From positions 2,443,014 to 2,507,013 of the forward strand of contig NZ_JAFN01000001.1 in NCBI RefSeq assembly GCF_000526155.1: a stretch of DNA of 64,000 nt. Reading direction: 5' to 3'. The DNA is from Deferrisoma camini S3R1. Lineage in GTDB: Bacteria > Desulfobacterota > Deferrisomatia > Deferrisomatales > Deferrisomataceae. The notes beneath the pieces are model-generated. The model was not told the origin of the DNA. It did no database searches and saw nothing but the letters and a program-made list of their open reading frames with translations. Position numbers and translations under genes: made by a program. Of the stretch, positions 1 through 8,645 are shown piece after piece; positions within the stretch are counted from its first letter, which is position 1; each line of letters opens with the position of its first letter.

Positions 1-192
1 CACGTCCACCTTGCACCCCCAGGTCTCCTCGAAGGGGGGCAGCAGCCGGGCCAGGAGCCCCGAGTTCTCGGTGCTGGTGGTGGTGGACATCCGGATGCGG
101 CACTCGGCGCCGGCCGAGCCGACCCAGCCGGCGACCAGAGCCAGGGCCAGCACCAGCCCGCTCCAGGAACGGATCCATCGACGGTCTCGCAT
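1..192 (-). CDS. tupA: Tungstate ABC transporter substrate-binding protein TupA (3' part missing)
   Basis: Periplasmic protein that would bind tungstate (or molybdate) and pass it to a TupBC permease/ATPase. The 64 visible codons begin with a Sec signal peptide (hydrophobic LVLALALVAGWVGSAGA), then the mature start IRMSTTTSTENSGLL, the signature N-terminus of the TupA family, then a 'P-x-F-E' segment and GCKVDV. The ATG at 192 has a good AAGGAG upstream. The gene runs off the left edge, so the permease genes expected next are not visible. It lies downstream of the porin on the same strand and is probably co-transcribed from the riboswitch leader near 1.7-2.0 kb. The name rests on the N-terminal motif alone. 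Confidence 0.8.
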   Translation of the reverse strand, partial: MRDRRWIRSWSGLVLALALVAGWVGSAGAECRIRMSTTTSTENSGLLARLLPPFEETWGCKVDV

Positions 193-222: not shown

Positions 223-375
223 CATCAGGCCCATGCGGGGCCCTACAACGCGAAGGGGCACCCCCGTTGGTCCGGGGGGAGCTAGAGACTAGAGACTAGA
301 AACTAGAGACTAGAACGTATGGGAATTCTGGAGGTTTCAAGCGTCCTAGCCTCCCAGCCTCCTAGCGTCCTAGCG
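223..375. repeat. Intergenic compound repeat (copy 1) with GACTAGA heptads
   Basis: A block containing 'ggggccctacaacgcgaagggg' in parts, then four to five tandem GACTAGA/AACTAGA heptads (about 283-315), then 'acgtatgggaattctggagg' and C+T-rich TAGC/TCC repeats. A near copy in the same order lies at 14631-14812, and its first part recurs inverted near 55763-55808. It sits between the porin and tupA. The repeat is certain; its function is unknown. Confidence 0.85.
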
Positions 376-379
376 GAAG

Positions 380-1582
380 TCAGAACGCCACCTGGTACTG
401 GACCCGGAACCGATCCTCGGTCGTGGCCGAGCCCGGCCCGTCCTGGGCGCGGATCCGGAACCAGTCGGCCTGGATCTTGTTGCGGTGGCCGTTGAAGAAG
501 GCGTTCAGGGCCACCCCGTAGGACTGGGTCAGGTCGTCGGAGGCGTCCGTGTTCGGGTCGAAGAACTCGTACCGGCCGGCCATCTCCACCACGTCCCTCC
601 ACACCAGGGCGCCCCCCTGCACGTACAGGCCCGTGGCGGTCTCGTCGTCCACGCCGTCGGCCTTGGGGTCGATCCGGCGGCGGTGGCCCTCGGCCCGGAG
701 CGAGAACCCCCGGTACGCCACCCCCGCGAATCCCCCCACGCTCACCACGTCGCTCGTGCCCAGGGCCGCGAGCCTTCCGTTCAGGTTCTTGCGGGTGTGG
801 CCCGCCACGTCGTCGTCGTAGGCCACCGAGGCCGCCAGGAACACCTGGGGTCGCTCGGGCCGGTTCAGGCTCGGCTCCCCGGTCAGGGGGCTTCCGCCCA
901 TGGGGGCCCACACGACCCGGCCCACGTACAGGTGACCGTCGCCCGAGTTGTTGCGGTTGCGTCCCTCGCCGTTGAACACGCCCGCGTCGTAAGACAGCCC
1001 ACCGGCCAGCTTACCGTGGACCGTGACGCCCGTGTCCCGGTCGAACCGGAACGTGGCGTCCACCCCGCTTCGCTCCACGAACTGGAGCTTCGAGGCCGAC
1101 ACGTTCCACTGCACGCCGTAGGGCACCTTGTAGGCCCCGGCCTTCACGGAGAACCAGGGGGCGAACGCGTAGTCCCCGAAGAAATCGAACAGGTCCGTGC
1201 CCTTCTCGTTGCCCGAGTACACGTTCACGTAGACCTTGTACTCGAGGTTCTTGCGGAACGCGTGCCCCTTGAGCCCCACGCGCGTGCGCTGCACCGAGAA
1301 GTTGCTCTGGTTCTCGGCGTCCTCCAGCTCCCGGAACGTGTAGCGCACCTGGCCGTAGCCGTAGATCCGGCCGGAGAACCGGCCGTCGCGGCTCCGGTAG
1401 GACAGGTGGTTCGGGGCCGCGGGCACGGCCGGGGCCTGCCGGGCCTCCAGCTCCTTGCGCTCGGCCGCCGTGATGATGCCCTTCTGCTCCAGGCGCTCGA
1501 GCAGGTCGACCCGGGCCCACCCGGGCCGGGCCCCCACCCCCAGGGTCGCCAGTACCGCCAGAACTCCCACGACCTGCCGCAT
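380..1582 (-). CDS. Phosphate/oxyanion-selective porin, OprP/OprO family
   Basis: Outer-membrane beta-barrel of about 400 residues. Residues 1-23 form a signal peptide ending near GWA. A short helical stretch with DLLERLEQKGIITAAE follows, as in many Geobacter-type porins, then an amphipathic strand-rich barrel (GRIYGYGQVRYTF, KAGAYKVPYGVQWN) ending in QYQVAF. The terminal Phe is the usual barrel-assembly signal. The start at 1582 is chosen because the signal peptide begins there and AAAGGAGGAACG precedes it; the longer open frame runs through the leader RNA. It lies between a tandem Moco/Tuco-like riboswitch and tupA, so the likely cargo is tungstate or molybdate rather than phosphate. Family assignment is firm; the substrate is inferred from context. 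Confidence 0.85.
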   Translation of the reverse strand: MRQVVGVLAVLATLGVGARPGWARVDLLERLEQKGIITAAERKELEARQAPAVPAAPNHLSYRSRDGRFSGRIYGYGQVRYTFRELEDAENQSNFSVQRTRVGLKGHAFRKNLEYKVYVNVYSGNEKGTDLFDFFGDYAFAPWFSVKAGAYKVPYGVQWNVSASKLQFVERSGVDATFRFDRDTGVTVHGKLAGGLSYDAGVFNGEGRNRNNSGDGHLYVGRVVWAPMGGSPLTGEPSLNRPERPQVFLAASVAYDDDVAGHTRKNLNGRLAALGTSDVVSVGGFAGVAYRGFSLRAEGHRRRIDPKADGVDDETATGLYVQGGALVWRDVVEMAGRYEFFDPNTDASDDLTQSYGVALNAFFNGHRNKIQADWFRIRAQDGPGSATTEDRFRVQYQVAF

Positions 1583-1631
1583 TCGTTCCTCCTTTCCGTG
1601 ATGGGTGAGCGGCGAATCCTCCAAACGAGAA

Positions 1632-1661
1632 GCGCCCCCTTTCCGGCTGGAAAGGGGGCGC
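1632..1661 (-). terminator. Intrinsic terminator after second aptamer
   Basis: Perfect GC-rich hairpin (GCGCCCCCTTTCC pairing with GGAAAGGGGGCGC) followed on the minus strand by a weak T-rich run (ttctcgttt). It lies between the second aptamer and the porin start codon, the position of an expression platform. Confidence 0.7.
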
Positions 1662-1699
1662 GGGCATGCCGGGCGGACCCCGCACGGGACCCGTCGGTC

Positions 1700-1802
1700 G
1701 CACCGCCTCCTTTCCAAGCACGGGAGGCCCGGCGGTTTCCCGCCGAACCCGTTGGCCGCGCGCCCTAGGACGGACCCCGTAGGCGCCACGGCTCGGAGGC
1801 AA
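1700..1802 (-). ncRNA. Moco/Tuco-like riboswitch aptamer, second of two
   Basis: Read on the minus strand, this begins GCCTCCGAGCC and ends GGAAAGGAGGC. The outer stem GCCTCC/GGAGGC therefore closes the element, with GGGAAACC and GCCTCCCGTG inside. The first aptamer (1856-1962) has the same layout with outer stem GTCTCC/GGAGAC, a compensatory change. Layout, length and position upstream of tungstate uptake genes fit the molybdenum/tungsten cofactor RNA family. The repeat and pairing are visible; the family call is from memory of the motif and context, without a covariance search. Confidence 0.6.
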
Positions 1803-1805
1803 CAC

Positions 1806-1842
1806 ACAAAAAACCCTCCCCGCGGTCGGACGGGGAGGGTGC
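1806..1842 (-). terminator. Intrinsic terminator between the two aptamers
   Basis: Strong minus-strand hairpin (ACCCTCCCCG pairing with CGGGGAGGGT) followed by six T residues. It lies directly after the first aptamer and before the second, so each aptamer has its own terminator. Confidence 0.9.
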
Positions 1843-1855
1843 GCACAACACCGGT

Positions 1856-1962
1856 CACCCGTCTCCTTTCCGAACGCGGGAGGCCGGGGCGTTTCCACCC
1901 CGACCCATCGGCGAACCGCCCGTGGGCCGCTGGGGCCGGTAGGTCGGTCCGCTCGGAGACGC
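1856..1962 (-). ncRNA. Moco/Tuco-like riboswitch aptamer, first of two
   Basis: Minus-strand element opening CGTCTCCGAGC and closing GGAAAGGAGACG, with an internal GTGGAAACGCCCCGG and GCCTCCCGCG. It shares CTCCGAGC, CCTAC-GG, GGAAAC and GCCTCCCG-x-G...GGAAAGGAG with the second aptamer. It starts within a few bases of the expected transcription start of the promoter at 1968-1997. Such RNAs are known upstream of molybdate/tungstate transporters and cofactor genes; the assignment here rests on motif layout and the tupA/porin context. Confidence 0.6.
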
Positions 1963-1967
1963 GGGAG

Positions 1968-1997
1968 AACATAGCCGGCCGGCGGCCCCGGGGTCAA
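1968..1997 (-). promoter_or_regulatory. Promoter of the porin-tupA transcript
   Basis: Minus-strand TTGACC (1997-1992), an 18-bp spacer, then TATGTT (1973-1968). The predicted start near 1961 coincides with the first base pairs of aptamer 1. The same architecture (TTGa-x-18-TATGkT) is seen before the phenylacetate-CoA ligase and the acyl-CoA synthetase. Confidence 0.6.
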
Positions 1998-4919: not shown

Positions 4920-5010
4920 ACACGGCGGTGACAGGTGACGGGTGACGCGTGACGGGGAACCCCTCCTCACCTGTCACGCGTCACGCGTCACTGCTCACTG
5001 GTCACCGTTC
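4920..5010. repeat. GGTGACG tandem repeats forming a convergent hairpin
   Basis: GGTGAC-x units in direct tandem (about 4926-4954) face inverted CACGCGTCAC units (about 4969-5004). The two sets can pair into a long hairpin between the convergent pyk and MBL genes. It may act as a bidirectional terminator. The right end overlaps the last codons of the MBL gene. Confidence 0.65.
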
Positions 5011-8012: not shown

Positions 8013-8645
8013 ATGGCTGTGATGCTCTCGGTCCACCCGGTCACGCCCCAGGCCCGGCACGTCCGGCGGGCGGCCGACGTGCTGCGCAACGACGGGGTGA
8101 TCGTGTACCCCACCGACACCGTGTACGGGCTGGGGTGCGACATCACCAAAAAGCACGCGGTGGAACGGATCGTCCGGATCAAGGGGCGCGACCCAAAGAA
8201 GCCCATGAGCTTCGTGTGCGCGGACCTCACCCACATCAGCCGCTACGCCCGGGTGTCCAACTTCGCCTACCGGATCCTGAAGCGGTTCCTGCCCGGCCCC
8301 TACACCTTCGTTCTGGAGGCCAGCCGGGAGGTGCCCCGGCTGCTCCTGACCAAGCAGAAGACCGTGGGGATCCGGATCCCGGACCACCCCGTGTGCCTGG
8401 GCCTGGTCAAGGAGCTGGGCAACCCCATCCTCTCCACCAGCGCCAACCCCAGCGGCGCCGACCCCCTGAATCGGCCCGAGGAGATCCAGTGGGTGCTGGG
8501 CAGCCAGGTGGACCTGATCCTGGAGTGCGGGGTGCTTCCCCGGGTGCCGTCCACGGTGGTCTCGTTGGTGGGCGAGCGGGTCCGGGTGCTGCGCGAGGGC
8601 GCGGGCGACGCCTCGTTCTTCCGGGAACTGGAGGAGGCCGGGTGA
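8013..8645 (+). CDS. Threonylcarbamoyl-AMP synthase, Sua5/YciO/YrdC family
   Basis: 210-aa cytoplasmic protein of the family that makes threonylcarbamoyl-AMP for the t6A modification of tRNAs reading ANN codons. The dsRNA-binding-like YrdC fold is shown by IVYPTDTVYGLGCD near residue 30, the KGRDPKKPMSF nucleotide site, LPGPYTFVL and NPILSTSAN. The motif spacing and 'RDPKKPMS' resemble the YciO branch, whose enzymatic activity is less certain. Start has AAGGGGA upstream. Its stop overlaps the GTG start of the next gene, so translation is coupled. Confidence 0.85.
   Translation: MAVMLSVHPVTPQARHVRRAADVLRNDGVIVYPTDTVYGLGCDITKKHAVERIVRIKGRDPKKPMSFVCADLTHISRYARVSNFAYRILKRFLPGPYTFVLEASREVPRLLLTKQKTVGIRIPDHPVCLGLVKELGNPILSTSANPSGADPLNRPEEIQWVLGSQVDLILECGVLPRVPSTVVSLVGERVRVLREGAGDASFFRELEEAG

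Follow-up and report, generated by a model that had tools for sequence, protein, structure and literature searches.

Two P3-less RF01055 riboswitches in series upstream of a porin-tupA operon in Deferrisoma camini S3R1

The porin-tupA locus and its leader RNA

The stretch of DNA analysed here (the window) comprises 64,000 nucleotides from the genome of Deferrisoma camini S3R1, a single contig of 4.24 Mb. A porin gene and the tupA gene behind it lie on the minus strand at the start of the window, preceded by a leader with two riboswitch aptamers (Table 1); the genes past tupA are likely on the opposite strand. By profile comparison, the relatives of the porin in the PDB are OprP (2o4v, 8e-16) and OprO (4rjw), and its sequence relationship to these porins is only distant. 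TupA, whose best PDB match is a tungstate-binding protein (3lr1, 3e-91), occurs once in the genome, behind RF01055. The single TupB-like permease above the NF038017 family cut-off is encoded 252 kb from the tandem, together with an ABC ATPase gene (the tupBC locus). Both TupA and TupB are related in sequence to the TupABC tungstate transporters and score below the NCBI strict equivalog cut-offs. Short tandem repeats were observed between the porin and tupA genes ('actagaga' type, window 281-315) and downstream of a pyruvate-kinase-like gene ('gtgacg' type, window 4925-5005).

Table 1. Features of the porin-tupA locus, in window coordinates
Feature	Coordinates	Strand	Details
Promoter TTGACC-18-TATGTT	1968..1997	-	motif scan, 9/12; shuffle mean 0.0
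Aptamer 1	1847..1970	-	RF01055, P3-less; 68.1 bits, model 1-135 covered in full
Switch 1 exchange region	1831..1866	-	P1 3' strand (1866-1861) versus terminator 5' arm (1840-1831)
Terminator 1	1808..1840	-	11-bp hairpin and U6; scan (hairpin 1840-1813); hairpin -22.9 kcal/mol
Aptamer 2	1693..1810	-	RF01055, P3-less; 74.3 bits, model 1-135 covered in full
Switch 2 exchange region	1649..1716	-	aptamer 2 3' end GGAAAGGAGGCG versus terminator 5' arm CGCCCCCUUUCC, 11/12 pairs
Terminator 2	1622..1661	-	13-bp hairpin, weak U tract; scan (1661-1632); hairpin -29.1 kcal/mol
Porin gene	380..1582	-	400 aa, first in operon; PF07396 Porin_O_P 57.1 bits
tupA, 5' part	1..192	-	277 aa, extends past the window, second gene; NF041772 TupA 224.8 bits, below the cut-off of 400

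When the entire window was compared with all Rfam families by cmscan, exactly two matches were obtained, both on the minus strand and both to RF01055 (the Moco RNA motif), with E values of 4e-16 for aptamer 2 and 3e-14 for aptamer 1 and scores well above the gathering score of 36. These full-length matches enclose the two aptamer-like repeats that an initial annotation had placed at 1856-1962 and 1700-1802, and they bear out its assignment to the Moco/Tuco family. The compensatory change that it had described in the outer stem is also present: P1 is formed by GUCUCC/GGAGAC (1960-1955/1866-1861) in aptamer 1 and by GCCUCC/GGAGGC (1800-1795/1710-1705) in aptamer 2. In both aptamers the P3 columns of the model are deleted, which places them in the P3-less subtype.

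In an alignment of 21 related aptamers, P1, P2 and P4 were paired in 87.9% of cells (shuffle mean, 74.5%), and double changes were found in 74 cells (shuffle mean, 31.7) and at 16 pairs. Pairing and covariation both exceeded all 500 of 500 shuffles and all slid controls, and the invariant core bases of the alignment are present in both aptamers of the window. By score, by the covarying P1, P2 and P4 stems and by the conserved unpaired core, the two are thus members of RF01055, and the tandem aptamers are real, far beyond chance.

The sole promoter-like site that our scan detected within 1583-2030 lies 5' of aptamer 1, where it had been annotated, and the predicted RNA start (about 1961-1962) falls at the base of that aptamer. 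From our reading of the sequences, a similar promoter, TTGAC(C/G)-18-TATGNT, TAGGCT or TAGACT, is found in the same place in three related genomes (G001, G002 and G003) and at the tupB switch. Two terminators were detected in the same region, compared with a shuffle mean of 0.5, so that each switch of the tandem has its own. The earlier statement of one terminator per aptamer stands for the presence of both hairpins and for terminator 1, which has a clear U6 tract, and is weaker for terminator 2, whose stem is strong but whose tail (UUCUCGUUUG) is poor. The U6 tract is separated from P1 of aptamer 2 by only about 7 bases; because of this short gap and the position of the sole promoter, the polymerase in the genus of the window probably reaches aptamer 2 only by reading through terminator 1. 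With no ORF between the aptamers, the order aptamer-terminator-aptamer-terminator is that of a pseudo-cooperative tandem. In addition, GGAAAGG occurs three times in series within 1583-1716 of the minus strand, namely in the aptamer 2 3' end, in the 3' arm of terminator 2 and in the porin RBS (GGAAAGGAGG), and the 5' arm of terminator 2 could therefore also mask the RBS.

Ligand and direction of control

P3-less RNAs were proposed to sense the tungsten cofactor (Tuco) on the basis of the distribution of P3, and they were found in organisms with tup genes (Regulski 2008, PMC2408646). The genome of D. camini offers such a context of tungsten use. Its third and last RF01055 match lies in the tupBC leader, as a single switch followed by its own terminator; RF01055 is absent at the two modA loci; and ten AOR-family genes, encoding potential tungsten enzymes, are present. 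The P3-less form, the tupA and tupBC targets, the ten AOR-family genes and the modA loci lacking RF01055 all point to tungsten, and the tungsten cofactor is the most likely ligand. That the porin passes tungstate is our guess from its regulation and the gene order.

We consider it probable (about 0.85) that the leader carries two independent P3-less RF01055 riboswitches in series, in a pseudo-cooperative OFF arrangement. The RNA would begin at aptamer 1. Without ligand, the P1 3' strand would pair with the 5' arm of the next terminator and the polymerase would read through; with ligand bound, most likely the tungsten cofactor, P1 would stay, the terminator would fold and transcription would end. 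RNA that passed terminator 1 would face the same choice at aptamer 2, and the porin and TupA would be made only from RNA escaping both stops. As tupBC is preceded by one switch of the same family, the whole tungstate uptake route would be shut when the cofactor is plentiful. With two independent transcription stops in series, a sharper shut-off is expected, and by analogy with published pseudo-cooperative switches (PMC9481103) the response may be steeper than that of a single switch.

Folding each half with its terminator, as the initial annotation had suggested, yielded a calculated OFF-type exchange at each stage. Partition functions were computed at successive RNA lengths at 37 C, with bound ligand represented by a bonus of -8 kcal/mol. 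In ligand-free switch 1, P1 started at a probability of 0.98 and was lost (0.00) while the terminator emerged (RNA end at 1821-1817), giving way to about 11 pairs that joined its 3' region to the 5' arm of the terminator; with the ligand bonus, P1 held at 0.91-1.00 and the terminator formed at 0.98. Switch 2 folded likewise, with a P1 probability of 0.00 when the RNA ended at 1645-1641, and its duplex was calculated at -19.0 kcal/mol with the terminator 5' arm versus -4.5 kcal/mol with the 3' arm. Counting against the model, the full-length minimum-energy folds of switch 1 in G001, G002 and G003 retained the antiterminator pairs and not P1. Across 24 loci, some of them related, one counted twice and one or two with arms possibly misplaced by the automatic finder, the P1 3' strand favoured the terminator 5' arm over the 3' arm at 19 (mean -8.7 versus -5.1 kcal/mol; sign test, p 0.007).

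In controls in which the tails were shuffled with dinucleotides kept, the destabilisation of P1 was not unusual, as 0.04 to 0.57 of the shuffles were as high for the tandem switches, and in an antiterminator shuffle test the significance was not clear for single switches. Since shuffled tails of this GC-rich RNA destabilise P1 about as often, the exchange between terminator and antiterminator is plausible rather than proven in both switches. The OFF direction that we infer is predicted at both stages, because P1 is not part of either terminator and its 3' strand is a competitor for the terminator 5' arm.

Conservation and descent of the tandem

The tandem is retained in all four of the family genomes examined, which represent two genera, and the order aptamer-terminator-aptamer-terminator in G001 and G002 (same genus) and in G003 (the other genus) is that of the window. 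Neither outcome that the initial annotation had named as refuting its reading was observed, since both halves have covariance matches and relatives conserve the paired bases. When genome contigs were searched with the porin, only two congeneric metagenome-assembled genomes were recovered. In G003, the tandem directly precedes tupA without an intervening porin, and the terminator sequences have diverged.

The poor U tract of terminator 2 in the genus of the window could mean that a single stage is functional, next to a relic or weakly attenuating one. We regard this as unlikely, and slightly more so than the two-ligand gate weighed below, as each aptamer is about 77% identical between genera with its paired bases kept, a stable hairpin still lies downstream of each, terminator 2 of G003 has a good U run, and aptamer 2 outscores aptamer 1 in the covariance search.

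The two aptamers of the window are 62% identical to each other, while the identity between genera is 78% for aptamer 1 and 77% for aptamer 2; a recent local duplication is ruled out by this difference. Between aptamer 1 and the tupB switch, the identity is 84%. In a tree of 41 aptamers, all aptamer 2 sequences grouped together (98/98) inside a supported 96/92 group. Outside that group fell aptamer 1, the tupB switches and the remaining switches of the order, and aptamer 1 was placed with these remaining switches in a group of its own (82/92). As the tree is based on about 105 columns and has some long branches, it gives moderate evidence that the tandem predates the split of the two genera and that two lineages may have been brought together in it. 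We hold it unlikely that the tandem was joined from two old aptamer lineages whose stages have distinct ligand preferences or sensitivities, forming a two-input or two-threshold gate; if true, such a gate would control tungstate entry at the outer membrane.

A gate with a NOR-like response, in which Tuco is recognised by one aptamer and Moco or another ligand by the second, would accord with the moderately supported placement of the aptamers in different lineages, with their identity of only 62% and with the AOR-family and modA genes of the genome. Such a gate appears improbable all the same, since P3, the only proposed discriminator of Moco and Tuco, is missing from both aptamers, the invariant core bases are common to both, and the closest relative of aptamer 1 is found at another tungstate gene, tupB. 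The two-ligand response offered in the initial annotation thus finds no support in the P3-less form and shared core of the two aptamers.

Tandems and porins across the phylum

A sample of 395 genomes from the phylum contained about 136 RF01055 loci, nine of them tandems, and one more tandem (G024) was recovered only with laxer filters. According to our own reading of the downstream proteins, tandems outside the family of the window include those before porin-tupABC (G268 and G306), a porin (G080), modABC-like genes (G331) and a likely molybdoenzyme gene, judged by its N-terminal sequence (G213). RF01055 was located directly 5' of a porin-group gene at 18 loci from at least eight families, when the lists for the 395 genomes were matched by hand, and tup genes come next after the porin in several of these loci. 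By hand counts, 6 of the 18 porin loci and 3 of the 118 remaining loci carry a tandem (Fisher p 1.5e-4); because the six come from only three families, the preference of tandems for porin loci is a lead and not a result.

The layouts of these loci vary. In G024:C28:10050-10520 (L041 about 8050-8520), two divergent tandem RF01055 aptamers precede an AOR-family gene. Here the P1 3' strand itself is used to build each terminator (hairpins -21 and -29 kcal/mol), so that a tungsten enzyme is predicted to be under an ON switch, opposite in logic to the window. An apparently separate tandem precedes porin-tupABC at G268:C8:35406-35924 and G306:C44:84891-85399 (minus; L042, L043); its aptamer 1 has a terminator and its aptamer 2 seems to mask the porin RBS by a hairpin (CUUUCC versus GGAAAGGAGG), in what seems to be a bi-mechanism layout. 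At G035:C20:147005-147777 (L047 about 1000-1780), a porin and tupA follow two RF01055 switches that lie 535 bases from each other and enclose a small MoaE-like ORF. The two tandem aptamers before the likely molybdoenzyme gene at G213:C154:45388-45794 (minus; L046) are nearly identical, which suggests a recent duplication, and clear terminators were not found at this locus.

The predicted ON switch of G024 and the RBS-masking second switch of G268 are precedents in the phylum for ON or translational control in the window as well. This reading is very unlikely, as P1 and the terminators of the window are separate elements, the 5' arm is contested by the P1 3' strand, and the end product would be expected to repress uptake genes. 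OFF control by termination remains the preferred reading.

The initial annotation had considered tandems of this class rare, which holds only in a relative sense: tandem Moco RNAs were reported in Syntrophomonas wolfei and Geobacter metallireducens (Regulski 2008, PMC2408646), and 13 Moco doublets and 2 triplets, together with tandem Wco switches preceding genes such as hydrogenases and arsenic-response genes, were described later (Sherlock 2022, PMC9481103). Like those tandems, the one in the window consists of two complete switches of the same class, placed in series and both equipped with an expression platform; unlike the Wco tandems, its target is porin-tupA, for tungstate uptake. It shares with the Moco-Tuco riboswitch (PMC2408646) the conserved core, the P1, P2 and P4 stems, a GNRA-capped P4 (GGAAAC) and the control of Mo/W transport genes, whereas the text of that study does not mention porins and its experiments concerned the E. 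coli moaA RNA, which has P3. Therefore, the tandem arrangement itself is already known, and what is new here is a conserved example before porin-tupA. Our literature search, largely without subscription papers, found no paper linking a porin to an RF01055 riboswitch and no described protein for the step of tungstate entry through a pore.

Taken together, our analyses describe a two-stage riboswitch that is conserved and serves as a clean example of tungsten-cofactor control, and the genome contains a built-in comparison between the single switch on tupBC and the double one on porin-tupA. The porins under RF01055 across the phylum are candidate tungstate entry pores.
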